A stretch of DNA of 64,000 nt from Silvibacterium bohemicum. GTDB taxonomy: Bacteria; Acidobacteriota; Terriglobia; Terriglobales; Acidobacteriaceae. Location: assembly GCF_001006305.1 (NCBI RefSeq), contig NZ_LBHJ01000020.1:372001-436000 (forward strand), in the 5' to 3' direction. Of this stretch, positions 8,552 to 26,814 are shown piece after piece (positions within the stretch are counted from its first letter, which is position 1; each line of letters starts with the position of its first letter). The position numbers and the translations under genes were made by a program. Under the pieces are notes generated by a model. It was not told the origin of the DNA. It saw nothing but the letters and a program-made list of their open reading frames with translations, and did no database searches.

Positions 8552-8619
8552 TGGATATTCTCCTGCTTTCATGCCGCACTCTTCTGGGACAATAGTTTCT
8601 GCCGCTGAGAAGCACAGGA

Positions 8620-8665
8620 AATCTACGCCGGAGAAATTTCAGCCCGCATCCGACTAAAGTCGGAT
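8620..8665 (-). promoter_or_regulatory. Shared-architecture promoter of the GH53 gene (operator 8648-8665, -10 at 8620-8625)
   Basis: Read toward the gene: ATCCGAC-TTTA-GTCGGAT, a perfect 7-4-7 inverted repeat, then 22 bases, then TAGATT. The repeat occupies the place of the -35 box. The same layout recurs at five other promoters in this window. The start codon lies about 70 bases past the -10. The rest of 8552-8852 shows no gene, and no matching promoter is visible toward the divergent TPR gene. Confidence 0.75.
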
Positions 8666-8852
8666 TGGCAGAATTTTTAATGAAGCGCACGTTCCGCCCA
8701 AGTGAGACTGGAATACGGCATGCAGACGTGAGGGCGCAGATAATGAATTCCATGAAATCAATGCGCCCGCCGAGCCGCGCCTCGCGTCAATCCGCGGGCT
8801 GCTGCCTGCATCGCCACTTCTCTCCGTGTAGGTTTTTTTGGCCGGACGCAGC

Positions 8853-10466
8853 ATGAAAAGGCTCGCGTGTGCCTCACTCTTCGCAGCCATGCTAGCGACG
8901 CGAACTGCATCCGCACTGCCGGCATGCACTGTCCCTGCGCAATTCAAGGTCCAGCTTGAACATCCTTCCGGTGCTGCAATCTATGCCGAGCTTGGGGCTT
9001 ATTATGCGGACCACGGCCAGTACCCCTGTGCGTCCACTGCGCTGCAAAAGGCTCTCGCAATCGAGCCGGATTCGGCACGATTCAATTCCCTGCTTGGCCT
9101 GAGCCTCTATCTAGGAGGCAACGCCAGGCAAGCTGTCGCGCCCCTCCAACGTGCTCTGCAGCTCGATCCATCGCTCGCAGACGCGCGTACGACGCTGGCC
9201 GCGGCCCTTGACCGTACCGGGGATCGCGCAGGCGCGGAAGAACAGTGGAGACTTGTGCTCGGCACCCAACGCTCCAACGCCGCGGCACTCGAAGGTCTCA
9301 GCCACGATCTGCTGGATGATCGAAACTACACCGCCGTGATTTCACTGCTTGCTTCCGCCCCGTCATACGTACAGTTGCCCGATCCGCTTGCGATTGACCT
9401 TTCCGCGGCTTATAGCAAAGTCGGGTTGCTGCAGGATGCCACGACTCTCCTTCAAACGCGCCTTGAAGCAGCTCCCAGTTCCCTGCCCGTTGCCGAGGCT
9501 CTTTCCGGTGTGCTCATTCTGCAGAGCCGCTTTCAGGATGCGACTGCCGTGCTTGCGCCGTTAACGAAGCAGAATCCATCCGATCTGCACCTGCAGGTTC
9601 TCTATCTGCAGACGCTCGTGCTCGCACATAACCCTGCAGCGGAGAGTGTCGCTCAGCAATTGAGCGCAAGCCATCCGCATCAGGCTGAGGTGCTGTATTT
9701 CCACGGTCTACTGCGTGAGCAGCAGGGTGATGATCCGGGAGCGAAGGAATATTTCGAGCGGGCCATCCGCGAGAATCCAAACGACGCCGATAGCCACTAT
9801 CGCCTCGGCGTTGTCCTAGCGGCGCTCAACGAGAGTGCCGCTGCGAAACAGCAGATCGAAAGGGCTATCGCGCTCGGTATTCATCTTCCTGAAGTACACA
9901 TGACGCTTGCGAAAATTCTGCGGGCCACAGGGGACGCGGCTGGAGCGCAACAGCAGTTGGCGCTTTATCAGCAACAATTGCAGGCGCAGGAAGCTCGCGC
10001 TCAGGCGGCGGCCAAAGCGCAGCAGGGAGACCAGGCTGAGGCGGCGGGAAACTTTGCATTGGCAACGCAGAATTACAGCGATGCACTCGCCCTCGATCCA
10101 CAGGAGGCGGTGCTGGCTTACAAGCTCGCCATGGCTCTCGATAAAACTGGAAACAGGGCTGGCGAGCGTGCAGCTCTCGAAAAAGCCATCGCCGATGATC
10201 CGCACATGGCTGTGGCGCAGAATCAGCTGGGCTATCTCGACTCCATCGCAGGCAATGCCGATGCTGCCATCGAGCACTTTCAGCTTGCGTTGAAAGACGA
10301 CCCCGCTTCCGTAAAAACATGGCTGAACCTCGCCGCGGCTCTATGTCTCGAATCGAAGTGGATGGAGGCGCGCGATGCGCTTCGCCACGTCGAGCAGCTC
10401 GACAACGAAAATTCCGCGGCCGCTGCGCTCCTGCAGCGGATCAATGAGGTAACCGGCCAGCGTTGA
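8853..10466 (+). CDS. Exported TPR-repeat protein
   Basis: A 537-residue protein with a signal peptide (about 1-21) and at least ten tetratricopeptide-like repeats from about residue 40 to the end, with the usual A-x-x-x-x-x-A-L-x-x-x-P spacing. Such proteins are scaffolds in the periplasm or at the membrane. The frame opens at a TTG 15 bases earlier, but ATG at 8853 starts directly at the signal peptide. A CRTAC1/UnbV gene follows 70 bases downstream and a giant TonB receptor after that. This trio recurs in Acidobacteria and suggests that the TPR protein works with the other two, but the molecular role is not known to me. An Ala/Gln-rich coiled stretch lies around residues 365-395. Confidence 0.85.
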   Translation: MKRLACASLFAAMLATRTASALPACTVPAQFKVQLEHPSGAAIYAELGAYYADHGQYPCASTALQKALAIEPDSARFNSLLGLSLYLGGNARQAVAPLQRALQLDPSLADARTTLAAALDRTGDRAGAEEQWRLVLGTQRSNAAALEGLSHDLLDDRNYTAVISLLASAPSYVQLPDPLAIDLSAAYSKVGLLQDATTLLQTRLEAAPSSLPVAEALSGVLILQSRFQDATAVLAPLTKQNPSDLHLQVLYLQTLVLAHNPAAESVAQQLSASHPHQAEVLYFHGLLREQQGDDPGAKEYFERAIRENPNDADSHYRLGVVLAALNESAAAKQQIERAIALGIHLPEVHMTLAKILRATGDAAGAQQQLALYQQQLQAQEARAQAAAKAQQGDQAEAAGNFALATQNYSDALALDPQEAVLAYKLAMALDKTGNRAGERAALEKAIADDPHMAVAQNQLGYLDSIAGNADAAIEHFQLALKDDPASVKTWLNLAAALCLESKWMEARDALRHVEQLDNENSAAAALLQRINEVTGQR

Positions 10467-10536
10467 TCGAGAATAGCGCAACACCTGCTGTGTAAGAATG
10501 CAGAGTGGCTGGTAACCCCAGCCGTCCTTCTGTCGC

Positions 10537-12306
10537 ATGTCTTCATCCGGTAAACGATTCAAGGTATCGAGCACGATATCGAGGCGCGGTCTCCTATGCG
10601 GAGCCTCCATCATCGGCGGCGACATGCTGGCCAGCCAACTCGGCTTTGCGTGGGCCGCCGCAGCGCCGGCCCACCCCTTTTCTCACTTCGTCGACGTAGC
10701 GGAACATGCCGGCCTTACCCAGATCATCCCGTATGGTGATACGAAGAAAGCCGACTACATCATCGAAGTGATGGGCGGCGGCTGTGCCTTCTTCGACTTC
10801 GACAATGATGGCTGGATGGATCTGCTCGTTGTTGGCGGCCGTTACGAAGACCGCGTTCCTCCAAGCGGAGGAACACGTCTCTATCGCAACCGCCGCGACG
10901 GCACATTCGAGGATGTGACCGCCAAGACCGGACTGGGCAGCAGCGGTTGGGAGACCGGCGTCTGCATCGCCGACTATGACAACGACGGATGGGAAGATCT
11001 TTTTCTCACGGCGTACGGACAGAACCGCCTGATGCACAACAATGGCGACGGCACATTCACCGACGTGACCGCGAAAGCCGGCCTTACTGGCAACAAGCCT
11101 CGCTTCGGCAGCGGTTGCACCTTCATCGACTATGATCGCGACGGCTGGCTCGATCTTTTCGTCGCAAATTATGCCGACGTCACTTTCGAGACGCTGCCCA
11201 AGCCGAATCTGCAAATGACCAACTGCAGCTTCGAAGGCGTAGCGGTCAACTGCGGACCGAGCGGGTTACCGTTTCCCTCGCACTCGCTCTATCGCAATAA
11301 TCGCGATGGCACATTCACCGATGTCTCGAAGGAATCGGGAGTGGGCGCCATTCGCGGCGGCTATGGCCTCACTGCCGTGGCCTTCGACGTGGATGAAGAC
11401 GGCTGGCAGGACATCTTCGTCGCCTGCGATTCGACGCCGAGCCTTTTGCTGATGAACAATCGCGACGGCACATTTCGCGAGGAAGGCCTCTTACGCGGCC
11501 TCGCGCTCAGTGGAATGGGACAGGCGATGGCGGGAATGGGCATAGCCGTTGGCGACTATAACCTCGATGGCCGACTAGACGTGGTGAAAACGCATTTCTT
11601 TCACCAGGCAACGGGCGTCTATCGCGGGACAGGCAACGGCCAATTCGACGATGCGACCATCGAAGCGGGACTCTCTGCCGAGCGCCGGTTCATCACCTGG
11701 GGCGTGGGTCTCGCGGATTTGGACAACGATGGCTATCCCGATCTCTTCGAAGTCGCTGGCACGGTCTATCCGGAGCTGGAGAGCCGTTATCCAGAAAAAT
11801 ATCCCAGCCGCAATCCAAGGCTGCTCTTCCGCAACACTGGCGGCCGCTTCATCGCCATGGGTGAAGAAGCAGGCGCGGATATATTCACTCGCCACGTCAG
11901 CCGGGGATGCGCATTCGGCGACTTCGACAACGATGGCGACCTCGACATTCTCATCATGAATCAGAACGAGCCGCCATCCCTGCTGCGCAATGATGCACCG
12001 TCGGGGAACCACTGGCTCAAAGTGCGTCTTCAGGGAGTGAAGAGCAACCGCAGTGCTATCGGCGCGCGCGTAATCGTGGAATACGGCGCGAAGCGGCAGG
12101 CGCAAACCGTTCTCAGCCAGGCCAGCTATCTTTCCGCCAACGATCCGCGCCTTCACTTCGGCCTGGGTGTGGAGAACACGGCGAATGTACATATCTACTG
12201 GCCGTCAGGAAGCGTGGAACGGATCGAGGAGGTGCATGCGAACCAGCTCATTCTCCTGCGTGAGGAAGCGGGCGTGGTCAAAGCGGAGCAGTGGAGCAGC
12301 CGCTAG
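10537..12306 (+). CDS. CRTAC1-family FG-GAP/VCBS beta-propeller protein with ASPIC/UnbV domain
   Basis: A 589-residue exported protein. A Tat-type signal (ISRRGLLCGASIIGG, about 14-40) is followed by FG-GAP/VCBS repeats with calcium-binding-like loops of the form DFDNDGWMDLLV, repeated through about residue 480 (for example DYDNDGWEDLFL, DYDRDGWLDLFV, DLDNDGYPDLFE and DFDNDGDLDILI). The C-terminal ASPIC/UnbV domain (about 490-580) carries NHWLKVRLQG, SAIGARV and IYWPSGSVERI. Extracytoplasmic calcium-stabilised propellers of this class are usually surface-binding or substrate-capture proteins. No enzymatic activity can be assigned. It follows the TPR gene by 70 bases and is probably cotranscribed with it. 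The ribosome binding site is weak. Confidence 0.9.
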   Translation: MSSSGKRFKVSSTISRRGLLCGASIIGGDMLASQLGFAWAAAAPAHPFSHFVDVAEHAGLTQIIPYGDTKKADYIIEVMGGGCAFFDFDNDGWMDLLVVGGRYEDRVPPSGGTRLYRNRRDGTFEDVTAKTGLGSSGWETGVCIADYDNDGWEDLFLTAYGQNRLMHNNGDGTFTDVTAKAGLTGNKPRFGSGCTFIDYDRDGWLDLFVANYADVTFETLPKPNLQMTNCSFEGVAVNCGPSGLPFPSHSLYRNNRDGTFTDVSKESGVGAIRGGYGLTAVAFDVDEDGWQDIFVACDSTPSLLLMNNRDGTFREEGLLRGLALSGMGQAMAGMGIAVGDYNLDGRLDVVKTHFFHQATGVYRGTGNGQFDDATIEAGLSAERRFITWGVGLADLDNDGYPDLFEVAGTVYPELESRYPEKYPSRNPRLLFRNTGGRFIAMGEEAGADIFTRHVSRGCAFGDFDNDGDLDILIMNQNEPPSLLRNDAPSGNHWLKVRLQGVKSNRSAIGARVIVEYGAKRQAQTVLSQASYLSANDPRLHFGLGVENTANVHIYWPSGSVERIEEVHANQLILLREEAGVVKAEQWSSR

Positions 12307-12408
12307 CAGCATCCGTTTCTTTTCGCTGACCGCTTTTCAGCTATCGACTTCATACGATCAACCGGCTACGGCAAATTTAGCCGCCATCCTGTACAAATTT
12401 TTCGCGCG

Positions 12409-12454
12409 ATTCGACTTTAGACGGATTCGCACCGTTTCGTTCGGCGCATACATT
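12409..12454 (+). promoter_or_regulatory. Shared-architecture promoter of the TonB receptor gene (operator 12409-12426, -10 at 12449-12454)
   Basis: Reads ATTCGAC-TTTA-GACGGAT, two differences from the perfect repeat, followed by exactly 22 bases and TACATT. The conserved spacing to the -10 argues that this degenerate site is real. It gives a leader of about 105 bases before the receptor's ATG. Confidence 0.65.
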
Positions 12455-12566
12455 TTGTCGCGGACCTTCAAATGGATTTTATGCGTTCGAAGAAGGTCTC
12501 TCGCGTTCGATTCGGCGAGTAGATAGGTACCGATCGGAGTGAGGCCAAATTATGGAGGGCAGGTTG

Positions 12567-15500
12567 ATGTTGGATGTGCCGGGCGTCAAAAAGATAGCGT
12601 TTACATTCGTATTGTTATGTTTAGGATGCATGCTTCCATCCGCATTCGGACAGGCCGTGGGCGCCAGTCTCAACGGCCAAATCACAGATCAGACCTCCGC
12701 CGCAATTCCCGGCGCCGTCGTCACCGCCAAGAATGTCGATACCGGACTGACTCTCTCCGCGACATCCACCGGCCAGGGAACTTATCGGATCGCCCCACTG
12801 CCTCCGGGCAACTATCAGCTATCAGTGCAGGCCACGGGCTTTGAGGGGTATGTTCAGAAAGGCATCGTCATCACCGTCGACACGCCTGCGACCCAGGACG
12901 TAGCTCTGAAGACCGGCGATGTACAGCAGACGGTTACGGTCACCGCGAACGCAGAGCTGTTGAACACGACCAGCGGCTCGCTTGGACAGACCATCGATTC
13001 CACATCGGTTTCGCAACTGCCTCTGAATGGCCGCTCGCCGTCGACACTGGTCTATCTCGCGCCTGGCATGACCGCCGGTGGCAACACCTACAACCAGACA
13101 GGCTTCTCCTTCCCGACGGAAACGCCGGTATCCGCGAATGGCGGCAACCAGGGCAGCACCTACTTCCTGCTGGATGGTGTACCGAACATGGATACCTATC
13201 TCGGCCTGCCTGCGCCCTTTCCGAACGCGGACGCTACACAGGAATTCCGCGTCATCACCAACAACTTCAACGCCGTATATGGATTCGCTCCGGGCGCAGT
13301 CGTCAGCATCCAGACGAAGTCTGGAACCAATGACATCCACGGCGGAGTCTTCGATTTCTACCGCGACAAGGTTTTCAATGCGAAAGATTGGTTCTCGCGC
13401 GAAGTCAATCCGCTTCACCAGAATCAGTTCGGCGGATTTGTCGGTGCTCCCATTCTGAAGAACAAGCTCTTCGTCTTCGCGAATTACCAGGGCACCCGCA
13501 ACGCATCGGCATCGACTGAGCTGCAATCGTACGTTCCCACGCAAGCCATGCTGAATGGTGATTTCAGCGCCTATTCGACCAACGGTCAGGAGACGCTGCC
13601 CGCGCCCTTCCACATGGTTAACGGCGTTCCCAATCAGATCAATCCAAACCAGTACAGCCCAATCGCAGTCGCTGTCGACCAGGCAGCGCTTCCTCTCGGG
13701 CAGCAGGCCAACGGTCTCACCTATTACACCTCTCCGGCTTTCATCAACCAGTTCGATGAGGGTACCGCACGGCTTGACTACGATGCGTCTTCCAAGCAAC
13801 GCATCTCGCTGCGCAGCTTTATCACCAGCTTTATCCAGCCTTCCGGCGATGTGCCCGGCAACCTGCTGGCGATGAACAATAACTACAACTACGATTTCGC
13901 GATTCAGGAACGCTACTACAACGAAACCCTTGACCACACCTGGACCATCTCGCCCTCCACGGTCAATGTGTTCTCCGCCTTCTGGACCGAGCTCGATGCC
14001 AGCAATGGTGCGCAGGCCGATGCGAAGGATGGCACGCCTTTCTGCTGGTCGAAATACATCAATGTCACCGAGCTGCCCGGGCAGTGCTACGTCGAAGGAT
14101 TTTCAGTGGGCGGCAACGGCTTCAACGTCGGTTATTACGAGCCGTCATCGGAAGGCCGTACCACCTATGGCTTCTACGACGTGCTGACGAAAACCTTCAA
14201 CACGCACACGCTCTCCGCCGGCGCGGATGTTCAGCACCAGTACGCGCGGGAGCAGACACAATATCCGACGTCTCCCATCCTGGCTTTCAACGGCCAGTAC
14301 ACCGGCCTCGGCCTGGCCGACTACTTGCTCGGCGATCTGTCTTCGATGTTCCAGGGCGCTGGTGAAGTCGCAGATGTCTCCGGATGGCAGCCCGGATTCT
14401 TTGTGCAGGACGAATATCGTTTCCGCCCGAACATCACCTTGACCGGCGGCCTGCGCTGGGATCCGAATCTTCCTCCCACGATCGCAAACGGCCGCGCAGC
14501 CACGTTCGTTCCCGGTCAGCAGAGCACCGTCTATCCGAACGCGCCGCTGGGCATGGTCTTCCCGGGCGACTCAGGAGTAGGCGGCGGATTGATGCAGACG
14601 ACCTACGGCTATTGGGAGCCGCGCATCGGCGTAGCGTGGCAGCCGAAGAGCCTGCCACATACTTCGATCCATGCCGGCTTCGGTTTGTTCACGCAGCCCA
14701 TGATCTACTCCGATTACAACCACACTGCAGACAATGCTCCGTTCGCGCCGACCTTCAATCTGCAGGGCACCAGTTCCACACCGCTGAACTTCGCCAATCC
14801 TTGGGCCGGCTTCGCCGGCACTGGTGGAGTCAGCCCGTTCCCGCCCTTTGCTTCGGCATCTTTCAGACCGGCGGCGAGCGCTACCTTCACCTCGGGACTT
14901 AGCATCCCTGCAACCATTGACACTCATTTCAAGCTGGGAACCACACAGAGCTGGAACGTGACTCTCGAACAGCAGATCGGTCAAAACACGGTGATGCGCT
15001 TGGCCTATGTCGGCAGTGAGAGCTATCACGCCCCCTTCATTCTCGATCGCAATCCCGGCGTCTTCGCAACTACTGGGACACGCAGCATCTATCCCTTCTA
15101 CAGCGAAATCCTGGACATGCTCAGTTACGGCACAGCGAATTATCATGCGTTGCAGGTAAGCCTCGACCATCGCCTGAGCCACAACCTTCAGTTCCAGACC
15201 AACTTCACGTGGTCGCGAACGGAAGACCTGGCCTCTTCCGCAAACATCAGCTTTGGCACCAACCAGCTTGGAGATCCCTTCTCTCTCGCATGGAGCCATG
15301 GCATCTCCAGTGAAGACGTGCCTCTTCGCTGGGTCGGCAATCTCACCTACACCACGCCCGATCTGAAGCGTTACAACCCGGTGCTGCGCCAGGTGCTCGG
15401 CAATTGGGAAATCAGCGCCATCACTACGGCACAGTCCGGATTTCCCTTCTCGGTCAGCGCCGGTTTCGGCAACAACGAATCGGAGGCTCAGCAGTATGAA

Positions 15501-15893
15501 GACCGCGCCGACGTTGTGCCCAGCGTCTCACGCAACGTTCGCCAGGGTGGGAAGTCGCATTGGCTGAATAATTACTTCAACATCAATGCTTTCGTAGAGA
15601 ATCAGCCCGGTACGTTTGGCGATAGCGGCAAGAACATCATGCAGGCGCCGCCTCTCTACTACACCGATGCCGGCCTCTACAAAAACTGGCCTTTCATGAA
15701 CCGGTTCAACATACAGTTCCGCTGGGAGATGTTCAACGCCTTCAACCAGCCGAGCTTCGCGGCTCCCAGTTCCAGCAACCAGATCTCCTTCAATCCCGCC
15801 ATCGGCAACCAGGGTGGAAGCGAAGGCAGGATCACGGCCACCGGATCAGAGCCCTCGCGTATCGGACAGATGGCGCTCAAAGTCACGTTTTAA
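12567..15893 (+). CDS. TonB-dependent outer-membrane receptor, Oar-like with carboxypeptidase regulatory-like domain
   Basis: A 1108-residue outer-membrane protein. After a signal peptide (about 1-30) comes a carboxypeptidase-regulatory-like Ig fold (about 32-110: GQITDQTSAAIPGAVVTAKN, TYRIAPLPPGNYQLSV), then a plug domain (LPLNGRSPSTLVYLAPGMT, YFLLDGVPN, STYFLLD) and a long beta-barrel ending in the aromatic-terminal pattern MALKVTF. This is the large acidobacterial receptor class, expected to bring oligosaccharides or other bulky ligands across the outer membrane with TonB-ExbBD. The substrate is not visible, but neighbouring GH53 and GH2 genes suggest galactan fragments. ATG at 12567 was chosen over 12552 because GGAGG lies eight bases before it. 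It has its own regulated promoter and a strong terminator. Confidence 0.93.
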   Translation: MLDVPGVKKIAFTFVLLCLGCMLPSAFGQAVGASLNGQITDQTSAAIPGAVVTAKNVDTGLTLSATSTGQGTYRIAPLPPGNYQLSVQATGFEGYVQKGIVITVDTPATQDVALKTGDVQQTVTVTANAELLNTTSGSLGQTIDSTSVSQLPLNGRSPSTLVYLAPGMTAGGNTYNQTGFSFPTETPVSANGGNQGSTYFLLDGVPNMDTYLGLPAPFPNADATQEFRVITNNFNAVYGFAPGAVVSIQTKSGTNDIHGGVFDFYRDKVFNAKDWFSREVNPLHQNQFGGFVGAPILKNKLFVFANYQGTRNASASTELQSYVPTQAMLNGDFSAYSTNGQETLPAPFHMVNGVPNQINPNQYSPIAVAVDQAALPLGQQANGLTYYTSPAFINQFDEGTARLDYDASSKQRISLRSFITSFIQPSGDVPGNLLAMNNNYNYDFAIQERYYNETLDHTWTISPSTVNVFSAFWTELDASNGAQADAKDGTPFCWSKYINVTELPGQCYVEGFSVGGNGFNVGYYEPSSEGRTTYGFYDVLTKTFNTHTLSAGADVQHQYAREQTQYPTSPILAFNGQYTGLGLADYLLGDLSSMFQGAGEVADVSGWQPGFFVQDEYRFRPNITLTGGLRWDPNLPPTIANGRAATFVPGQQSTVYPNAPLGMVFPGDSGVGGGLMQTTYGYWEPRIGVAWQPKSLPHTSIHAGFGLFTQPMIYSDYNHTADNAPFAPTFNLQGTSSTPLNFANPWAGFAGTGGVSPFPPFASASFRPAASATFTSGLSIPATIDTHFKLGTTQSWNVTLEQQIGQNTVMRLAYVGSESYHAPFILDRNPGVFATTGTRSIYPFYSEILDMLSYGTANYHALQVSLDHRLSHNLQFQTNFTWSRTEDLASSANISFGTNQLGDPFSLAWSHGISSEDVPLRWVGNLTYTTPDLKRYNPVLRQVLGNWEISAITTAQSGFPFSVSAGFGNNESEAQQYEDRADVVPSVSRNVRQGGKSHWLNNYFNINAFVENQPGTFGDSGKNIMQAPPLYYTDAGLYKNWPFMNRFNIQFRWEMFNAFNQPSFAAPSSSNQISFNPAIGNQGGSEGRITATGSEPSRIGQMALKVTF

Positions 15894-15911
15894 GCAGGAT
15901 GCTTCCTAGAA

Positions 15912-15942
15912 CGTCCGGGGGAATATCCCCGGACGCTTTTTT
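15912..15942 (+). terminator. Rho-independent terminator after the TonB receptor gene
   Basis: A perfect nine-base stem (CGTCCGGGG/CCCCGGACG) with a six-base loop, then C and six T residues, 18 bases after the receptor stop codon. It separates the receptor from the downstream kinase gene. Confidence 0.92.
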
Positions 15943-16012
15943 ATTCTGCCGCCCTGTTTTCCCGCCGATTCCGAGCTGCGCCTCCAAGTGATAGACTCCA
16001 TCTGAAGCGGCT

Positions 16013-18994: not shown

Positions 18995-19620
18995 GCGAAG
19001 CAGGAAAAACCAGAGTCCTTATCGTCGACGATCATCCCATCATGCGCTACGGCGTGGCAGCGATCATTCAAGCGCGCACCGATATGAGCGTCGTGGCACA
19101 GACCGGAACCGCTGCTGGCGCGGTGGAACTTTTTCGCGAGCATACTCCCGACATCACCCTGATGGACCTTCGCCTTCCCGACATGAGCGGAGTGGAAGCG
19201 ATTCGCGAGATCCGCCGCTTTGCGCCGCAGGCCAGAATCATCGTGCTCACCACCTATGAGGGAGATGAGGATATCCATCAGGCGCTGGCCGCCGGAGCGC
19301 GCGGATACCTCATCAAGGGAATGCCCCACGAGGCGCTGATCGATGCCATCCGCAAAGTGCAGGCTGGTGGCCGCTTCCTCCCTGCCCCGGTGACGCGTGC
19401 GCTCGCGTCGCGTTTACCTGATGGAGAGCTGAGCTCAAGAGAGCGCGAAGTTCTAAATCTGCTCGTGCGTGGAAAGAGCAACCGCGAGATCGCCGAGGCG
19501 CTTTCCATAAAAGAAGCGACGGTCAAGTCGCACGTCAGCGTCATTCTGATGCGACTCAACGTAACCGATCGCACTCAGGCCGTGATCACGGCTCTCCAAC
19601 GCGGGCTTGCTCATCTGTAG
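18991..19620 (+). CDS. NarL/FixJ-family response regulator
   Basis: A 209-residue response regulator. The receiver domain (about 7-122) has the acidic pair VDDH, the phosphorylation site in DITLMDLRLPDMSG (Asp57 region), a Thr in the LTTYEG segment and the conserved Lys in GYLIKGMP. The C-terminal LuxR-type helix-turn-helix (about 145-205) reads LSSREREVLNLLVRGKSNREIAEALSIKEATVKSHV with the family's usual residues. ATG at 18991 overlaps the kinase stop. Proteins of this HTH class bind inverted repeats of 16-20 bp, often centred near -42 when activating. That matches the 18-bp repeat seen at six promoters here, so this protein is the best candidate to bind it (inference). Confidence 0.95.
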   Translation: MSEAGKTRVLIVDDHPIMRYGVAAIIQARTDMSVVAQTGTAAGAVELFREHTPDITLMDLRLPDMSGVEAIREIRRFAPQARIIVLTTYEGDEDIHQALAAGARGYLIKGMPHEALIDAIRKVQAGGRFLPAPVTRALASRLPDGELSSREREVLNLLVRGKSNREIAEALSIKEATVKSHVSVILMRLNVTDRTQAVITALQRGLAHL

Positions 19621-19637
19621 AGGGCAAACAGGTTTTC

Positions 19638-21812
19638 TCATCGCGACACGGTGACTTCATACCATGAGGTCACTGTGTCACCCAGTGAAAGCGACCAGCC
19701 ACCATTCGCGAACGCCGCGGAAATCTTTTCCCCGACCGGTTGTCCAGCTCCATCGAGCGCTTGAAGAGAGATAGCTTTCGCCCCCTGTATCTGCCGGAGC
19801 GTGATCGTTCCCGTTACAGGCTCGATCAGCGTAGGAAATCCGCCCCACTCGGTCACATCGGTTCCCGCCGTATTCCAGCGTTCGCCGCTATTTCGCACCG
19901 TGCCGCCGGCCACCAGCAGCATGCGCGATGATTCACCAATGGCACGGCCGTCGAGTGAGCTGAGTTGGATGGTGCAGAAGCTGTTCTCCGGCACGGCGGC
20001 AAGATTGCTGAGCTGCTTGTTGTAGGCTCGGGCAAACCCGATCAGCGCCTGGGTGCGTGGAGTATCGATCGTCACCAGACCTTCCTGAGGATGCGACGTA
20101 TACCAGGCAAGCTGCCCCGTATCGGAAACGATCGCATCGGTAACTGCTGCTGCGTCAAACGCCTTCGTAGGGCCGCCCTGCAGCGACGAGACACGAACCT
20201 CATGCTGCAGCGGTAACGTTAGAGGAAAACCTGGCGTGAAGAAAGGCCGCTCTGTGGCCTCCGGCAACAGCATGCTGTCGAATGCCTGTTCGCGGCTGTA
20301 GGATCGCTCCACCGTTGTGTGCGCCTTCGCAACGTCGCCACGCAAGAACAGCAATGCTCCTGCCGCCAGCTCCGGCATCTTTACTGGATCTGAAGAAATA
20401 TCAAACGGGTCGCCAACGTACGGCTTCCACGCTGCATCGGCCTTTGGCTCGAAGGTGTACCACATGATGCCGTCCCAATCCTGAAGCAGACCGTAGGCTG
20501 CAAGAATTGGAATGCCCTCGCTGTCGTAATCGTTGGGAAATGGATTGTTGACCTCGCTCACCGTGTACGGCTTCCCTGCGATGGCCGAACGCGAAAGATC
20601 GACAACCGTAGAATGCAGCGGGTCGTTGACCATCGGAGACTTCCGCACATACGACTCAGGATGTTCCCAGTAGTCGTGTCCATCGATCAGATCCGCCGAT
20701 GACGCAGCCAGCAGAATCGGATAACCACTGTTCGCATGGCTATGATCCGCCGTCGCGATCACCAGCGACTTCGACCTCAAATCCTCTTTAAGATATTTTT
20801 CCATCTCATCGAAGTAATTGCGCTGCACGTCGTTATAGAACTCTGCCTCTGCATGAAAGCGCTCAGGCGGAGACGCAGCGGCCTTACCTTTAGTGGCAAT
20901 CAAAGTGACCGGTTTATCTGATTCAATACCTGCAATCCTGCGAAGCTGAGAAATCTCATCCGGAGTTCGATGCCTCGCCAGCCAGTCGTTATACATTCCC
21001 GTCAGCTCAATCAGATAAAACGGCGAAGGAGCGCGGTATCCCACGTTCAGCGCATTTTCGTTATTGATCTCGATCAGAGCAACCGCTGGATCGTCCGTGT
21101 ACTTTCGCTTCGTGTAGGGATTCAGGTGATCCAGCAGTTGCTGCGCATACTCTTTCTGCAGCTCAATCATGCGCCGGTCGAAGATCGATGTGCCTTTAGC
21201 GCCTTCGCGCAACATCCCAGCGTCCTGCACGTCATCGGCACTCTGAAAAGGCCTTCCCACCAGCAGATTGAAGTCTACATAAATCCCGCGCTTTTCCAGC
21301 TCCGCAATGAACAAGTCCTCGCGATCTACCTGTTCGGGATCGAGCGCACGCGTATCCGGCCTTTGATTATCGATCAGACCGCGGGGCTCCTTCAGGTCAA
21401 GGAACTGGAAGCGAACGCAATTCACGCCAAAGCGCGCTAGGGTCGCTGCCCAGAATGCCGCATCTTCCTTGCTTGGAATCTGACGGGAGCCGGGACTCCA
21501 GTCCGTGATGTTGACTCCCCAGAATCGGATACGCTGTCCGCCTTCTGTCGCCAGGTGGCCGTCTTTCACCCGCACGAAGCCATGCTTGCCCGCCGGCGCA
21601 TCGAGCAGGGACGAAACATCTGCCGGAGAGGCGGCCAGAGCCGCGCGTCGATGATCAAGCGTGAACGGCATGAGTCTCTCAGGCGTCTGGGCAAAAACTG
21701 CGGAGCGCATTCCGCACAATGCAAGTGCTGCAAAAAAGAATAGCCGGCACATCTGCCGATACTCGCTGACAACTAAACCGGTGCTCCGGCGCTTAAGTTT
21801 TCCTGAAATCAT
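19638..21812 (-). CDS. Exported clan GH-A glycoside hydrolase (GH5/GH42-like)
   Basis: A 724-residue secreted enzyme. A short basic lead precedes the signal peptide (MCRLFFFAALALCGMRSAVFAQ, about 21-42). The catalytic region begins with RIRFWGVNITDW and FGVNCVRFQFLD and has the acid/base-like LIEINNENALN (about residue 260) and a candidate nucleophile in PYTVSEVNNPFPND. This is a (beta/alpha)8 clan GH-A pattern. A beta-rich C-terminal part (about 520-724) may be a carbohydrate-binding or accessory domain. Substrate is not clear; beta-mannan or beta-galactan would be guesses. The open frame begins at 21866 inside the operator, so I place the start at ATG 21812, after a GA-rich AGGGGCAGGG segment. 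ATG 21752 is an alternative. It is convergent with the regulator gene, with a 17-base gap. Confidence 0.8.
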   Translation of the reverse strand: MISGKLKRRSTGLVVSEYRQMCRLFFFAALALCGMRSAVFAQTPERLMPFTLDHRRAALAASPADVSSLLDAPAGKHGFVRVKDGHLATEGGQRIRFWGVNITDWSPGSRQIPSKEDAAFWAATLARFGVNCVRFQFLDLKEPRGLIDNQRPDTRALDPEQVDREDLFIAELEKRGIYVDFNLLVGRPFQSADDVQDAGMLREGAKGTSIFDRRMIELQKEYAQQLLDHLNPYTKRKYTDDPAVALIEINNENALNVGYRAPSPFYLIELTGMYNDWLARHRTPDEISQLRRIAGIESDKPVTLIATKGKAAASPPERFHAEAEFYNDVQRNYFDEMEKYLKEDLRSKSLVIATADHSHANSGYPILLAASSADLIDGHDYWEHPESYVRKSPMVNDPLHSTVVDLSRSAIAGKPYTVSEVNNPFPNDYDSEGIPILAAYGLLQDWDGIMWYTFEPKADAAWKPYVGDPFDISSDPVKMPELAAGALLFLRGDVAKAHTTVERSYSREQAFDSMLLPEATERPFFTPGFPLTLPLQHEVRVSSLQGGPTKAFDAAAVTDAIVSDTGQLAWYTSHPQEGLVTIDTPRTQALIGFARAYNKQLSNLAAVPENSFCTIQLSSLDGRAIGESSRMLLVAGGTVRNSGERWNTAGTDVTEWGGFPTLIEPVTGTITLRQIQGAKAISLQALDGAGQPVGEKISAAFANGGWSLSLGDTVTSWYEVTVSR

Positions 21813-21829
21813 CCCTGCCCCTCGCGGGG

Positions 21830-21875
21830 AATGTATGCGATCGAGCATATGGCGCGAATCCGACAAAAGTCGGAT
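21830..21875 (-). promoter_or_regulatory. Shared-architecture promoter of the clan GH-A hydrolase (operator 21858-21875, -10 at 21830-21835)
   Basis: Read toward the gene: ATCCGAC-TTTT-GTCGGAT, a perfect 7-4-7 inverted repeat, 22 bases, then TACATT. The start codon at 21812 lies about 11 bases past the expected transcription start. Confidence 0.75.
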
Positions 21876-21927
21876 CAGACAACTTCACATTCTGAGGGGC
21901 GAAGCAGCGGCGCAAAGGGCCCAGCAG

Positions 21928-22830
21928 CTACGCGGAGCCCAGTGCTTGCTGCGCAGCTTCGCGCGACTTCCTCAGTGACTCCACCGGATCGCTTGTCGGG
22001 TAATATTCCATCGCGATAAACCGTCTGTAATGCAGGGCAGCCAGCTTGCGATAGATGTTCGTGTAGTTCACCTCGCCCGTGCCCGGTTCATGACGGCCCG
22101 GCACGTCGGCAATATGCACCAACCCGATCCAGTCGATGTTGTTCTCCAGCTTCTCGATCAGGTTCCCGTAGGCGCGCTGCTCATGATAGAAGTCGTAGAG
22201 CACCTTCACATTATCTCGATTGATCTCGCGCACGATTCCGAAGCCTTCGCTCACCGTTGAAAGAAAAATGGTGGGATTCTCGAGCGGATCGATCGGCTCA
22301 ATCACAATCTCGATTTTGTGTTTGGCTGCGAGATCTGCGGCCCGCTGTAGATTATCGATCGATGTCTGCCGCTGTATCTTCGGATCGACGCCCAGCACGC
22401 GTTTTCCCGAGAGCAAGATGATCTGCGGACATTGCAGCTCCACCGCGTAGTTCACCTGCTCCTCCATCTGCTTCAGAAAATCGCCCGACTCCTCCGGCAC
22501 TGCGAAGCCGGCCTTCACGCCGCTCATCGAATCGAAAATCAGTCCCAGCGATTGCATGCGCGCCATGATGCGCTGGGTTTCCTGCTTCGACCACTTTTGA
22601 AACTCGCCCACCAGCTCGATCCCCTGGTAGCCGGAGGAGGAAACGATCTCGACGCAGCGATCAAAGGGAGCCTGCTTTTCCAGCGCCCACAGCATGAATG
22701 AAAATCGCACACCGCTCGCATTCAGGCCTGCATTCTGGTTCGGAGAAGCGACAGGAAGCGCGCCAGCGCGTGACATGGCAGATCCAAGAAGTGATCCCAG
22801 CGCAAGCTGGCTGAAGCTACGACGATTCAT
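21928..22830 (-). CDS. Tat-exported hydroxypyruvate isomerase-like TIM-barrel protein
   Basis: A 300-residue protein of the AP-endonuclease-2 / sugar isomerase-epimerase superfamily, closest in pattern to hydroxypyruvate isomerases. A twin-arginine signal (MNRRSFSQLALGSLLGSA) directs it to the periplasm. Metal-site landmarks are IVIEPID (Glu), VKVLYDFYHEQ (Asp/His), IGLVHIADVPGRHEPGTGEVNY and RFIAMEYYP (final Glu). ATG 22830 is preceded by GAGG six bases away; earlier in-frame ATGs lack this. It follows the next gene by 48 bases in the same operon. Exported isomerase-like proteins occur in glycan loci and may act on oxidised (keto) sugars; the substrate here is unknown. Confidence 0.87.
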   Translation of the reverse strand: MNRRSFSQLALGSLLGSAMSRAGALPVASPNQNAGLNASGVRFSFMLWALEKQAPFDRCVEIVSSSGYQGIELVGEFQKWSKQETQRIMARMQSLGLIFDSMSGVKAGFAVPEESGDFLKQMEEQVNYAVELQCPQIILLSGKRVLGVDPKIQRQTSIDNLQRAADLAAKHKIEIVIEPIDPLENPTIFLSTVSEGFGIVREINRDNVKVLYDFYHEQRAYGNLIEKLENNIDWIGLVHIADVPGRHEPGTGEVNYTNIYRKLAALHYRRFIAMEYYPTSDPVESLRKSREAAQQALGSA

Positions 22831-22878
22831 GAAACCTCGCATACAAAAGAAATAAGCGGCGCACTGCAAACGCAGATC

Positions 22879-23775
22879 CTATGCAAAGGGAGGAAGCGCG
22901 CGCAGGTAGTCATAGTCCACCTTCGCTGCATCGATCGCTTGCATGTCTGGAAACGGCGGCTCCTGCTCTACATAGTAGGAGAGGATGCCAATCTTGATCG
23001 CCGCTGCCAGGATCGGCCGGTAATCGATATATCCACGGCCCAGCTCCGTTCCCTGAGGCCGCTGATCTTTCGCGAGCGATGTGCTCACTTTGCTCCCCCG
23101 AACGAAATCTTTAATGTGAAGCATCTTGATTCGCTTCGGATACCTGCGAAAATAATCCGGAGGATTGAAACCTGCCGCCACCATCCATCCACAATCGACT
23201 TCGAAGTCCACCAGCGCCGGGTCGGTCTCTGCCAGCAAAACGTCATAGCCGATCTTGCCGCCGTCGAGCTTTCGGAATTCCATGTTGTGATTGTGATAGG
23301 CATACTGCAGTCCAGCCTGCTTCGCTGTTTTTCCGATCTCGTTGAGCCGGGCCGCCATGTTTTTGTAGTCCTCGACTGCCGGCTGCGTGGATGCGCTTGG
23401 CGGAAGCATCGCCGAACACACAGCAAAATGTGCGCCTACCGCATTGGCATCGGCAAACGCTGGGCCCAGATCGGATGTGTTCATCTGCAGGTGCGCGCTA
23501 TGGCATACCAAACCGGCCGCATCGAGCTGTTTGCGAAACTCTGCGCCGGTCAGGCCCGCAAACCCGGCAGTCTCTACTTCTCGGTATCCAATCTCACGAA
23601 TCTTTTTCAGAGCGCCCGGCACATCTTGCTTGAGCTCGTCTCCAACCGTGTAAAGCTGAATACCGACAGGCTGTCTGCCAGCCTTGGCCAAAGCGCTGCG
23701 AGAGAACGTTGAGGTTAGCAAAGCGGCAGCGGCTGAGCTGTTGCGAAGAAAGCTGCGTCTGGAGAGGAGCGGCAT
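22879..23775 (-). CDS. Tat-exported sugar phosphate isomerase/epimerase-like TIM-barrel protein
   Basis: A 298-residue protein of the same superfamily as its downstream neighbour but only distantly similar to it. It has a Tat-type signal (LSRRSFLRNSSAAAALLTSTFS), then a (beta/alpha)8 barrel with QLYTVGDEL, EVETAGFAGLTGAEF, YAYHNHNMEF (His pair), DFEVDCGWMVAAG (Glu/Asp) and MLHIKDF (His/Asp). These match the divalent-metal binding pattern of xylose-isomerase-like barrels. AAGGAAAA lies upstream of the ATG. The gene follows the HbpS-like gene by 62 bases. Export argues against a sugar-phosphate substrate; a periplasmic sugar derivative is more likely (inference). Confidence 0.87.
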   Translation of the reverse strand: MPLLSRRSFLRNSSAAAALLTSTFSRSALAKAGRQPVGIQLYTVGDELKQDVPGALKKIREIGYREVETAGFAGLTGAEFRKQLDAAGLVCHSAHLQMNTSDLGPAFADANAVGAHFAVCSAMLPPSASTQPAVEDYKNMAARLNEIGKTAKQAGLQYAYHNHNMEFRKLDGGKIGYDVLLAETDPALVDFEVDCGWMVAAGFNPPDYFRRYPKRIKMLHIKDFVRGSKVSTSLAKDQRPQGTELGRGYIDYRPILAAAIKIGILSYYVEQEPPFPDMQAIDAAKVDYDYLRALPPFA

Positions 23776-23837
23776 CCTGAGTTTTCCTTTCGAACCGTAA
23801 TGTACCTTAGCTTGGCTGACAACACAGAATAGGCGTC

Positions 23838-24332
23838 TTACAGATCGTCTTTCAAACGCGCAAGTCCTGACTTTGAAACCTGCACATCGTCATCCGACTT
23901 TCCCCCGCTGAAAGCCGCAATCACATAGCCTGTCTTGCTGCGCGCAATCACGCCGCCCGTCCAGTCGAACTCTCCCGTCATCGGAGGGCGCGCATGGCTG
24001 CCGCTGTCGCGCAGCGTGTCCGCCATCTCGGAAGCCTTCGCATACGCGATCGCCAGCAGGTTCGATCCCGGATTGCCCGTAGTTGGCAGGTCTTTCATGC
24101 GCCCCACGACCACCATTTTCGACTCCCACGACTGAATGCTGTCGCCCTGAAAATAGGCCACCACTGCGACTCCGCCGATATTCAGATCTTTCGCGCGCTG
24201 CTGCATCGCGGCCAACGCCGAATCGGCGACGTCGCCAAAATGGCTATGGCTCGATGGCGCCTGGGCCGGCACCGACGCCGGCGCAATTGCAAGAAAGAGC
24301 GCCACAGTAATGATGGAAAAAAGACGTTTCAT
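23838..24332 (-). CDS. Exported GlcG/HbpS-like protein
   Basis: A 164-residue protein with a signal peptide (MKRLFSIITVALFLAIAPASVPAQA) and a single domain resembling the GlcG/HbpS family (SALAAMQQRAKDLNIGGVAVVAYF, AYAKASEMADTLRDSGS, GGVIARSKTGYVIAAFSGGKSDDDV). HbpS itself binds haem and interacts with a sensor kinase in Streptomyces; GlcG-type members have no proven enzymatic role. ATG 24332 is chosen; the frame starts nine bases earlier with TTG. It is the first gene of a three-gene operon (with two isomerase-like genes) driven by the promoter at 24409-24454. Confidence 0.75.
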   Translation of the reverse strand: MKRLFSIITVALFLAIAPASVPAQAPSSHSHFGDVADSALAAMQQRAKDLNIGGVAVVAYFQGDSIQSWESKMVVVGRMKDLPTTGNPGSNLLAIAYAKASEMADTLRDSGSHARPPMTGEFDWTGGVIARSKTGYVIAAFSGGKSDDDVQVSKSGLARLKDDL

Positions 24333-24408
24333 CGGAACCAACCTTGTCGTGATCGGGCTTGCATCGGCAACTCAGAGCGGCGGCGCGTCGGAAAACAAAG
24401 CGCAGATG

Positions 24409-24454
24409 ACTATAGACGAGAGAACGCAGAATGCGAATCCGACGAAGGTCGGAA
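24409..24454 (-). promoter_or_regulatory. Shared-architecture promoter of the HbpS-like/isomerase operon (operator 24437-24454, -10 at 24409-24414)
   Basis: Read toward the gene: TTCCGAC-CTTC-GTCGGAT, 22 bases, then TATAGT, the best -10 of the set. The operator centre is 29 bp from that of the divergent site at 24466-24483. Confidence 0.75.
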
Positions 24455-24465
24455 TAAGATGTCTC

Positions 24466-24511
24466 TTGCGACTTTTGTCGGATTCGTAATGTGCAGACGC
24501 TCAAGTATCGT
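24466..24511 (+). promoter_or_regulatory. Shared-architecture promoter of the VOC gene (operator 24466-24483, -10 at 24506-24511)
   Basis: Reads TTGCGAC-TTTT-GTCGGAT, 22 bases, then TATCGT. The gene-proximal half is perfect; the distal half has two differences. It is back to back with the minus-strand site at 24437-24454. Confidence 0.7.
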
Positions 24512-24587
24512 GGTCTCGCGTTCGCAGAGCAGAATATCTGGTTTCCTTTATATTTCGACTCTCTCGTGAAAGGACAAAAACGCATCG

Positions 24588-25526
24588 ATGAGCGCCCGAA
24601 AGCAAGCTCTCCTTCTTCTCCTCTGTGCTCTTGTCGAACTTGGTCCCGCGTCGGCACAGAGCGGTCCATCCCGCCCTGCAATCACAGGAATTTCTCACGT
24701 TACCTTCTATGCTGATGATCTGCAAAAGTCGGAGGCCTTTTACACCAATGTCCTCGGCTGGGAGCAACAGCCCGCCGCTGATCGTTCCACAGGAGTGCGC
24801 TTTTTTGCCAATCACCAGCAATTCATCGAGTTGGTCCCTGCTCCGCGGCCGGCAATGCTGAATCGCCTGCAAAGCTTTGGCCTGAATACTAGCGATGCCG
24901 AGAGACTGCGCCGCTACCTCGGGGCTCACGGCGTCGCCGTGCCCGCCGCGGTTACCGTCGCTCCGGATGGAAGCCGCTACTTCGTTACTCACGACCCCGA
25001 AGGCAACGAAGTTGAGTTTGTCCAATTGAGCAAACACGCGGTGCCCGCTCCTGCGAATCTGTCGAAGCGGCTCAGCACCCATATCATTCATGCCGGCTTC
25101 GTCGCACATAACCGCGCGGGCCTCGATCACTTCTACAAGGACTTGCTGGGATGCCACCTCTACTGGGAAGGCGCGGCACAAGCCGGTCACACCGACTGGG
25201 TCATGATGCAGGTGCCGGATGGCACGGACTGGATCGAGTACATGCTCTATCTTCCGACCACGCCTTCACGCGGGCAGTTGGCCAGCGCCAATCACTTCTC
25301 GCCAGGTGTGGTCAGCATCGCAGAGCTGAACAAGCGTCTTTTGTCTCAGGGATGGAAACCAAGCGCACAGGAACGCCCACCGCTGCTGGGGCTCGATGGC
25401 AAGTGGCAGCTTGACCTCTTCGATCCGGATGGCACACGCGTCGAGTTCATGGAGTTCGAGCCGGTGAAAACGCCTTGCTGCTCGAGCTTCACCGGACCGC
25501 TCCCTGGACCATATCCGGGCTGGTGA
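24588..25526 (+). CDS. Exported two-domain VOC (glyoxalase/dioxygenase fold) protein
   Basis: A 312-residue protein with a signal peptide (about 1-23) and two vicinal-oxygen-chelate modules: about 32-150 (GISHVTFYADDLQKSEAFYTNVLGWE ending in DPEGNEVEFVQL) and about 165-295 (HIIHAGFVAHNRAGLDHFYKDLLG ending in DPDGTRVEFMEF). His and Glu at the module ends are metal-ligand candidates. VOC enzymes include glyoxalases, dioxygenases and epimerases; a periplasmic location suggests action on an imported sugar or phenolic, but no specific reaction can be named. The start has AAAGGAC upstream. The gene is divergent from the HbpS-like operon and has its own copy of the shared promoter. Confidence 0.88.
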   Translation: MSARKQALLLLLCALVELGPASAQSGPSRPAITGISHVTFYADDLQKSEAFYTNVLGWEQQPAADRSTGVRFFANHQQFIELVPAPRPAMLNRLQSFGLNTSDAERLRRYLGAHGVAVPAAVTVAPDGSRYFVTHDPEGNEVEFVQLSKHAVPAPANLSKRLSTHIIHAGFVAHNRAGLDHFYKDLLGCHLYWEGAAQAGHTDWVMMQVPDGTDWIEYMLYLPTTPSRGQLASANHFSPGVVSIAELNKRLLSQGWKPSAQERPPLLGLDGKWQLDLFDPDGTRVEFMEFEPVKTPCCSSFTGPLPGPYPGW

Positions 25527-25571
25527 TCGAAGCAGTTCACATTGCTTCGAAATAGCAGTGCGATGTCCTGA

Positions 25572-26618
25572 TCACTGTAAGATTGCATCGATAAGCTGCA
25601 GTTCTTCCGCTGTAAAGTGGCGATTGTCGAGCGCTCTAACGTTCTCTTCGATTTGTTCCAGACGGCTTGCTCCGATAAGCACGCTCGCGATACACCTCTG
25701 CCGCGTCACCCACACCAGCGCCATTTGCGCCAGGCTCTGGGAGCGCTCTCGCGCAATCTCCTTGAGAGCGCGTATCTGTTCGAGCCTGCGTTCATTCAAA
25801 TCGGCAGGCTTGAGAAACCTGCCCACTGCTGCTCGCGAATCGGAAGGAATGCCGTCAAGGTAGCGCTCCGAGAGCATTCCCTGTGCCAGCGGCGAAAACG
25901 CAATTCCGCCAATCCCCTGTTGCTCTAGGGTCCCGAACAGGCCCTCTTCTGGCGCCCGCTGGAACAGCGAATACCGCATCTGATGAATCAGGCATGGCGT
26001 CTTCAGCTCGCACAGCACTGCGGCAGCCCGTGCCGTTTGCTCCGCGTTATAGTTCGAGATGCCCACATACAGGGCCTTGCCCGCGCGAACGGCATGCGCA
26101 AGTGCGGCCACGGTCTCCTCGACAGGCGTATTGGGGTCGGGCCGGTGCGAATAGAAGATATCGACATACTCCAGCCCCATGCGCTGCAGACTCTCATCCA
26201 GGCTGCTCAACAGATATTTGCGCGAGCCCCAGTTGCCGTAAGGCCCCGGCCACATGTCATAGCCGGCCTTCGTCGAAAGAACCAGCTCCTTTCGGTAAGG
26301 ACGAAAATCCTGCCGATATAGCAGTCCGAAAGTTTCCTCTGCGGCCCCATAGGGCGGCCCATAGTTGTTCGCCAGATCGAAGTGTGTAATTCCAAGATCG
26401 AAGGCTCGCCGCAGCATCGCACGTCCCGTCTCCAGAGAAGTGGTCGCGCCAAAGTTGTGCCACAACCCCAGAGAGATGGCAGGCAGCACCAGCCCGCTTC
26501 GTCCGCAGCGAACGAACGTTGCCTCTTCATATCTGCGATCGCTGCCGATGTACAAGGCTCCCTCGCTGCAGGCCAGTCTAAATGAAATCGTCTTTGTGCT
26601 TGATGAGCGAACACCCAT
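25572..26618 (-). CDS. Aldo/keto reductase, YghZ (L-glyceraldehyde 3-phosphate reductase) type
   Basis: A 348-residue NADPH-dependent reductase. The N-terminal region RRYEEATFVRCGRSGLVLPAISLGLWHNFG and FDLANNYGPPYGAAEETFG are hallmarks of the YghZ/GPR subgroup. The catalytic tetrad residues are visible (Asp in THFDLANNYG, Tyr, Lys in LSTKAGYDMWPGPYG, His in IFYSHRPDPNTPVEE), and the NADP-binding end has SVLIGASRLEQIEENV. The family usually starts close to the DRRYEE segment; a TTG at 26555 after GAGGGAG is therefore a credible start in place of ATG 26618. Such enzymes act on methylglyoxal, glyceraldehyde phosphate or other aldehydes. It lies convergent to the VOC gene, and no copy of the shared promoter points at it. 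Confidence 0.9.
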   Translation of the reverse strand: MGVRSSSTKTISFRLACSEGALYIGSDRRYEEATFVRCGRSGLVLPAISLGLWHNFGATTSLETGRAMLRRAFDLGITHFDLANNYGPPYGAAEETFGLLYRQDFRPYRKELVLSTKAGYDMWPGPYGNWGSRKYLLSSLDESLQRMGLEYVDIFYSHRPDPNTPVEETVAALAHAVRAGKALYVGISNYNAEQTARAAAVLCELKTPCLIHQMRYSLFQRAPEEGLFGTLEQQGIGGIAFSPLAQGMLSERYLDGIPSDSRAAVGRFLKPADLNERRLEQIRALKEIARERSQSLAQMALVWVTRQRCIASVLIGASRLEQIEENVRALDNRHFTAEELQLIDAILQ

Positions 26619-26635
26619 CCTGTAAAAAAGCGTCT

Positions 26636-26680
26636 ACTCGACTTTCGGCGGATACATGGCAGAATAGATTCGCGTAGTGT
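26636..26680 (+). promoter_or_regulatory. Probable shared-architecture promoter of the GH2 gene (operator 26636-26653, -10 at 26675-26680)
   Basis: Reads ACTCGAC-TTTC-GGCGGAT, three differences from the perfect repeat, then 21 bases and TAGTGT. It is the weakest member: both site and spacing deviate. It lies about 135 bases before the GH2 start codon. Confidence 0.5.
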
Positions 26681-26814
26681 GACCATTGCTGCGATCCATG
26701 ATGAAATCTGCGGCGCACGCCGTTGCGCCATCTGCTCTCTCGATGAACCACTAAATACGTTTTGTGGCTAGGGATGTTTCATCCCAGTTGGCCGCAACGA
26801 GGTATAGAAGGACA

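Follow-up and report, generated by a model that had tools for sequence, protein, structure and literature searches.

The glycan-use cluster of Silvibacterium bohemicum comprises genes that face in both directions. The cluster lies in a 64,000-nucleotide stretch of contig NZ_LBHJ01000020.1 (positions 372,001 to 436,000 of the forward strand), hereafter the window, in which six promoters carry the same 18-bp inverted repeat, or box, ahead of a -10-like element. We consider it likely, with good confidence, that the box is the operator of the cluster's own response regulator (18991-19620), a class II activator site centred near -43; this prediction is drawn from sequence. Comparison among genomes, again at the level of sequence, establishes the box with its direction, constant spacing and targets, and shows that it occurs together with this regulator and its sensor kinase; covariation of the box with the recognition helix is more weakly shown.

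Six boxes at a fixed distance from a -10 element

A first-pass annotation of this DNA had described six 18-bp sites of the form ATYCGAC-TTTN-GNCGGAT, and their positions and strands proved correct to the base:

8648..8665, minus strand: box 1, ATCCGACTTTAGTCGGAT, upstream of the GH53 gene
8620..8625, minus strand: -10-like TAGATT, 22 bp past box 1
12409..12426, plus strand: box 2, ATTCGACTTTAGACGGAT, upstream of the receptor, kinase and regulator genes
12449..12454, plus strand: -10-like TACATT, 22 bp past box 2
21858..21875, minus strand: box 3, ATCCGACTTTTGTCGGAT, whose target is the protein 19638..21866, of no assigned family
21830..21835, minus strand: -10-like TACATT, 22 bp past box 3
24437..24454, minus strand: box 4, TTCCGACCTTCGTCGGAT, whose target is the probable operon 21928..24341
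24409..24414, minus strand: -10-like TATAGT, 22 bp past box 4
24466..24483, plus strand: box 5, TTGCGACTTTTGTCGGAT, adjoining box 4 back to back, with the VOC gene as target
24506..24511, plus strand: -10-like TATCGT, 22 bp past box 5
26636..26653, plus strand: box 6, ACTCGACTTTCGGCGGAT, with the GH2 gene as target
26675..26680, plus strand: -10-like TAGTGT, 21 bp past box 6

The spacing from operator to TAnnnT on the strand of the gene is constant, as had been claimed (22, 22, 22, 22, 22 and 21 bases), and the chance of a TAnnnT at offset 21 or 22 from a random position in the window is 0.009. Each box is a 7-4-7 inverted repeat with half-sites of about 7 bp, the dyad being perfect in boxes 1 and 3, and boxes 4 and 5 (24437-24483) stand back to back, each directed at its own gene. 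If transcription is assumed to start about 7 bases past TAnnnT, the centre of the dyad falls at -42.5 to -43.5, and the place of the -35 element holds a TCGC-like sequence, not TTGACA.

It is the operator together with the -10 that is rare, not the operator alone. Within the window, the 18-mer with up to three mismatches is found nine times (the six sites, two palindromic ones read again in reverse and a weak intragenic match at 23892) vs 1.39 expected, and none of 100 shuffles reaches nine, the largest count being six. In the genome of the strain itself (G000, 6.46 Mb in 25 contigs), compared with its backwards control, TYCGACTTTNGNCGGAT with up to two mismatches gives 34 matches vs 32, and a palindromic 16-mer gives 19 vs 22, which speaks against rarity of the operator by itself; at zero or one mismatch, the 16-mer matches are confined to this cluster (five rows in the search of the whole genome). 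When 30 of the 34 matches were read for a -10 (the six sites, 23 outside matches and the reverse reading of one cluster site, leaving four outside matches unread), it was present at 6/6 cluster sites and 0/23 outside matches.

The box recurs in relatives

A search with the kinase in 299 genomes drawn from the class matched 37 of them at 1e-100, and 14-20 kb around 20 of the kinase-ortholog loci were read. A matrix built from the six sites finds boxes in all 12 of the closest loci (L037-L048); the first ten loci, among which L043 is almost a copy of L042, yield 24 matches vs 0-5 for 20 column-permuted matrices. Among the remaining loci, L050 has one matrix match, which is intragenic, and L055 and L056 carry a variant.

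We then ran an iterated matrix, which scores the 18-mer only and not the -10, on the window and 11 other genomes, dropping before any count the near copy L043, palindromes read in reverse and one of the two copies of a site common to L045 and L105. Among 39 matches, a TAnnnT stands at offset 21 or 22 in 35/35 of those with a score of 20 or more (29 outside the window and the six given sites) and in 0/4 of those with a lower score. Three of the 35 are called coding by a crude gene finder. Since related genomes are not independent, we claim no product of chances. The matches stand before homologous or analogous genes, in the same direction and at the same spacing, as the first-pass annotation had expected of a matrix scan of related genomes, and this is upheld where the gene order differs (G296). 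Matches scattered at random or within coding regions, the outcome that would have spoken against the element, were not seen, save for a few that score low or lack a -10.

A kinase-alignment scan of named genomes supplied 11 acidobacterial ortholog loci (L115-L125), three of which (L121, L123 and L124) repeat genomes already read. The 12 matches with a score of 18 or more, every one of them with the -10, fall in 5 of the 11 loci. Edaphobacter lichenicola X5P2 (L115) accounts for four of them, Granulicella mallensis X5P3 (L116, nearly a repeat of L045) and L117 for three each, and L118, a Terracidiphilus metagenome-assembled genome, and L125 for one each. L119 has two weak variant sites. Control scans yielded one match, which lacks a -10, in 69 loci with more distant kinases (1.09 Mb) and none in 11 paralog loci (213 kb). 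In a draw from the whole phylum, kinase matches at 1e-180 occur in 9/396 genomes, all from the family of the window; the other families of the class with matches in the class-wide kinase search did not reappear in this draw.

The same association emerges without the kinase as seed. The exact pattern TCCNACTTTNGNCGGAT, run over the 299 class genomes, has 28 matches in 19 genomes vs 7 matches for the backwards control. Nineteen of the 28 lie in or near the kinase cluster of 11 genomes with close kinase orthologs (the farthest about 15 kb off, in G296), and all 19 have the -10. Of the nine exact matches elsewhere, six lack a -10 and three have one, two of them in G195 and one in G249; the latter is enclosed in a frame on the opposite strand, has no gene ahead of it and is probably a chance match. 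At the level of genomes, matches occur in 11 of 37 kinase genomes vs 8 of 262 others (Fisher p = 9e-7 at the search cut-off, and 1.6e-13 at a tighter kinase cut-off that was picked afterwards).

A nearly symmetric site with fixed polarity

Over the 33 matches called non-coding in 12 genomes (positions counted from 0; one of them, L048 2442, lacks a -10 and is probably not real), positions 8 and 9 are T in 33/33 when read towards the gene, in keeping with the claim that the T-rich spacer consistently faces the gene. The gene-proximal half had been described as the better conserved one. This applies to its outer GGAT (32, 33, 33 and 33 of 33), but not to its inner bases, which vary at position 12 (T16, G12, A5) and position 13 (C24). 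In the distal half, the first base is free (A13, C10, G8, T2). Such polarity is unusual in an otherwise nearly symmetric site.

The candidate reader of the box

Two regulatory genes lie on the same strand behind the receptor gene, the start codon of the regulator overlapping the stop codon of the kinase (ATGA):

16013..18994, plus strand: sensor histidine kinase (Pfam: Reg_prop propeller, Y_Y_Y, HisKA_3, HATPase_c), with orthologs elsewhere
18991..19620, plus strand: NarL/LuxR-type response regulator (Pfam: Response_reg and GerE), the proposed binder of the box

Of the genes scanned in the boxed stretch, no others were recognised as regulators, and the gene 18991-19620, with its receiver and GerE domains (Pfam), provides the linked regulator that an operator calls for. 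Kinase and regulator are also the two families present in 16/16 box loci; the next families, among them antisense shadow frames and not all identified, reach 14/16 or fewer. The closest solved relatives of the regulator are VraR, DesR, NarL, ChrA and DevR/DosR.

These data are consistent with the following scenario. The propeller-sensor kinase (16013-18994) would sense an oligosaccharide derived from galactan and phosphorylate the NarL-type regulator (18991-19620), a dimer of which would bind the 7-4-7 repeat over about -52 to -35, in place of a -35 box, and recruit RNA polymerase to the -10 fixed 21-22 bp downstream. The regulator may thereby switch on the GH53 enzyme, the beta-galactosidase-type enzymes, the receptor and the accessory genes. 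Binding, phosphorylation, activation rather than repression, the transcription starts and the ligand are what we infer here. As the regulator is related to VraR, DesR, NarL and DosR, the core is DosR-like and the spacing is fixed, class II activation appears to be the economical reading, and since kinase and regulator lie behind the boxed receptor gene in this strain, positive feedback is likely.

Targets and probable substrate

The genes that face the boxes, together with the rest of the box 4 operon, are the following:

5669..8572, minus strand: GH53 (endo-galactanase family) with ricin-type lectin domains (Pfam), target of box 1
12552..15893, plus strand: TonB-type outer-membrane receptor (Pfam: CarboxypepD_reg and OMP_b-brl_4), target of box 2
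19638..21866, minus strand: target of box 3, no Pfam or NCBIfam match
21928..24341, minus strand: probable operon behind box 4, a small protein and then two TIM-barrel isomerase-like proteins
23838-24341, minus strand: the small protein, first in the box 4 operon, no family match
22879-23775 and 21928-22869, minus strand: the two TIM-barrel isomerase-like proteins of the box 4 operon
24588..25526, plus strand: VOC/glyoxalase-fold protein (Pfam), target of box 5
26764..29334, plus strand: GH2 enzyme, beta-galactosidase-like (Pfam), target of box 6

The set expected of a galactan-utilisation locus is present, with GH53, GH2 and receptor genes here and GH35, GH53 and GH2 genes in relatives. GH35 genes are boxed in L042, L045, L048 and L107, and in L041 a GH35 gene comes second, behind a boxed GH53-like gene; GH53 genes are boxed in L038, L040 and L106 and, by BLAST, in L045; GH2 genes in L044 and L105 and, by BLAST, in L037 and L039. 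Receptor genes are boxed in 11 of 12 genomes (not in L038), and their products are either 51-81% or only 25-32% identical to the receptor of the window. In G296 (L105), where the gene order is another, the box precedes a TIM-barrel pair, a GH2 gene with VOC and small-protein genes, another GH2 gene and a receptor gene. The boxed GH53, GH35, GH2 and receptor families therefore suggest, from families alone, that the substrate of the regulon is beta-1,4-galactan (pectic galactan).

The start listed for the open reading frame 19638..21866 overlaps box 3, such that the true start must lie further in. Homologs 63-69% identical occur in L038, L040 and L105, and are boxed in L038 and L040. Its predicted structure has a mean predicted local distance difference test score (pLDDT) of 35.6, and a sequence search of the PDB matched only a GH5 mannanase, at E = 0.76. 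The product is likely to represent a new galactan-related enzyme family. Two labels of the first-pass annotation, "clan GH-A hydrolase" and "HbpS-like", could not be confirmed, there being no Pfam or NCBIfam match at 0.001. The best NCBIfam match of the GH2 protein (26764..29334) is GalA, below the cut-off of that family.

The GH53 protein (5669-8572) ends in a PxKF domain (NF038114), besides its ricin-type lectin domains. Between boxed genes lie a TPR protein and an FG-GAP/ASPIC-UnbV protein (8838-12306), for which no box of their own was found at three mismatches, and an aldo/keto reductase gene (25572-26618, minus strand) without a box lies between two boxed plus-strand genes. Elsewhere in the window, at 36126-37886, a single frame combines a MOSC domain and a module resembling ferredoxin reductase (FAD, NAD and 2Fe-2S domains).

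Variant boxes and recognition helices

More distant regulators, which have other residues after TVK in the recognition helix, are accompanied by boxes altered in both half-sites. A TVKWH helix goes with CCTAAC and TAGGT (L050, L086, L087), a TVKCH...F helix with CTGAC and GGCAG (L055, L056 and also one L119 site), and a TVKVR helix with CATAC and GTATG (L049, one site). In the variant boxes the AC-TT core is kept, as is the G that follows the spacer. The L050 site with up to three mismatches has two matches in 0.20 Mb of such loci, one in L086 and one in L087, both before receptor-sized genes, vs 0 matches in 1.46 Mb of controls.

These variants came from a loose dyad search in which the -10 had a part in the choice of sites. 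Several of them are represented by one site each, and the merged variant pattern was built from the sites that it then matched exactly, which makes its count of 3 vs 0 circular. The -10 is less regular as well: L086 and L087 have TAnnnA, not TAnnnT, at offset 21, and the sites L055 14912 and L056 8513 have their -10 at 23 and 24. The L049 site lies inside an opposite-strand frame of 463 codons, and L119 9678 inside a frame of 584 codons with no gene start in reach. The loose search turned up nothing convincing in L051 (CTCCTCC-GAAT-GGAGGAG), L052/L085, L088-L091, L122 and L124. A regulator tree of 46 rows, with six left out as partial, duplicate or off-family, agrees in part with the helix-box groups: the branch that sets off the classic group on one side is modestly supported (69/67), support for the CCTAAC group (L050, L054 and L120, the L120 site being CCCAAC) is 99/97, and the CTGAC group requires two changes.

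Tentatively, and with rather more doubt than conviction, we propose that these promoters form a family in which the directional AC-TTTN-G core and the 21-22 bp spacing serve as an invariant element of polarity and polymerase contact, and the outer pairs as a separable specificity code that is rewritten with the recognition helix. In this code, TVK[S/C/T]HVS would correspond to TCC(G/T/A)AC with GTCGGA, TVKWH to CCTAAC with TAGG, TVKCH...F to CTGAC with GGCAG, and TVKVR to CATAC with GTATG.

Alternatives to an operator of the linked regulator

Several observations weigh against the box being the operator of the linked regulator. Some loci (L049-L054 and L120-L124) have the kinase ortholog and no classic box: the matrix gave no match of 14 or more in L049 and L051-L054, and none of 18 or more in L120-L124. 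The genomes G001 and G051 have close kinase orthologs and no exact match, their boxes carrying mismatches. Specificity is not complete, in that the matches L055 11244, L056 11330, L050 15098, L048 13041, L048 6103 and L039 18485 are intragenic, and none of these has TAnnnT at 21-22. Nor is every gene of the kind boxed: no box faces the GH35 gene in L039 or the gene of the 19638-21866 family in L105 (G296), although both belong to such clusters. Because most loci were found by way of the kinase, its presence in 16/16 is by choice, and only the exact-pattern scan is unseeded. In G195 (L106, L107), from another family of the class, two boxes with -10 stand before GH53 and GH35 genes, yet no kinase was found at 1e-100 and no regulator at 1e-40 in an assembly that is 80% complete and in 990 contigs; this assembly may lack the pair, or something else may read the box in G195. 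Lastly, the excerpted report on ComA of Bacillus subtilis, like our candidate a NarL-family activator that uses an inverted repeat, describes an inverted repeat at the class II place as a poor site for activation (PMC4797271). There ComA needs a direct repeat, whereas here an inverted repeat stands in that place.

It is possible that the box is read by another, unlinked regulator and that the kinase-regulator pair merely travels with the galactan genes. The boxed genes of G195 without a detected pair would fit such a scenario, as would the ten further regulators of this type that the genome holds at 1e-40. However, the boxes stay with the pair even where other enzymes and receptors stand behind them, NarL/LuxR-type regulators are known to have a dyad and core of this type, and variant helices accompany variant boxes, and we regard an unlinked reader as improbable. 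No more probable, in our view, is that the linked regulator binds the box as a repressor that covers the -35 region until released by a sugar signal. The site does overlap the -35 region, where a repressor would also work, but no -35 consensus is left for an unaided promoter, and the fixed polarity and 21-22 bp spacing (35/35) are expected of polymerase contact rather than of a steric block.

That same rigid spacing and polarity towards the -10 could also be accounted for if the 18-mer were the upstream recognition element of an alternative sigma factor. Against this, the downstream hexamer resembles an ordinary TAnnnT, the -35 elements of sigma factors are unlike 18 bp with an inverted repeat, and none of the genes scanned in the boxed stretch was recognised as coding for a sigma factor (those of the ortholog loci were only partly scanned), which leaves a sigma element very improbable. 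As for chance or a dispersed repeat, it is true that the operator alone, at two mismatches, is no commoner in the strain's own genome than its backwards control, but with its -10 it is confined to the cluster among the matches read. The recurrence of the box across genomes before like genes excludes this explanation in practice. An operator of the cluster's own response regulator thus appears to be the most fitting role for the box.

Relation to known systems

Operators of NarL-type response regulators in the class II position are a kind of element already known; the systems compared here are described from excerpts of the reports cited. The DosR (DevR) box of Mycobacterium tuberculosis, with the consensus TTSGGGACTWWAGTCCCSAA, is likewise an inverted repeat of a NarL/LuxR-type response regulator with a GAC-T..A-GTC core (PMC2275270). 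Our sites do not conform to the DosR consensus, as the outer bases are GGGAC in DosR and TCCGAC here, and the symmetric DosR centre (TWWA) contrasts with the asymmetric TTTN centre, whose invariant TT points to the gene; moreover, the DosR regulon concerns hypoxia, while the present one is predicted to concern galactan. The lux box, an inverted repeat bound by a GerE/LuxR-type domain and centred at -42.5 (PMC7585371), occupies the same place as our dyad if the assumed start holds. However, it differs in sequence and length, and LuxR is a one-component sensor of acyl-homoserine lactone, not part of a two-component system.

With respect to the task performed, the pair resembles the hybrid two-component systems of Bacteroides, in which a periplasmic oligosaccharide sensor drives the linked glycan-use locus and of which one, HTCS_Pga, is predicted to respond to pectic galactan (PMC3878776). 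In these hybrids the kinase is fused to a receiver and an AraC-type regulator, whereas here a separate kinase is paired with a GerE-type regulator and an inverted repeat. Control by phosphorylation is usual in VraR and NarL (PMC9263151). Our searches of the open-licence PMC literature, as judged by titles and the beginnings of abstracts, brought up no description of such a box, of its regulon or of its pairing with a propeller kinase, which does not show that they are absent from print.

Implications for galactan use in acidobacteria

The locus offers a testable regulator-operator pair and a regulon for beta-galactan use in acidobacteria. Acidobacteria are abundant degraders of polymers in soil, and to our knowledge little seems to be known about the control of their glycan loci. 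The box can further serve to assign targets that belong to no known family, such as the 19638-21866 product and its homologs. Operator variants that stand beside variants of the recognition helix are useful for asking how a genome with many NarL-type regulators keeps the sites of each distinct, and the fixed polarity of a near-symmetric operator calls for a structural explanation. If the proposed family of promoters is real, it would constitute a naturally occurring series of switches in specificity among regulators of one lineage, in which polarity is set by the spacer and not by the half-sites. The new regulon is well supported, and a natural specificity series with a polar operator is the less certain prospect that it may open.

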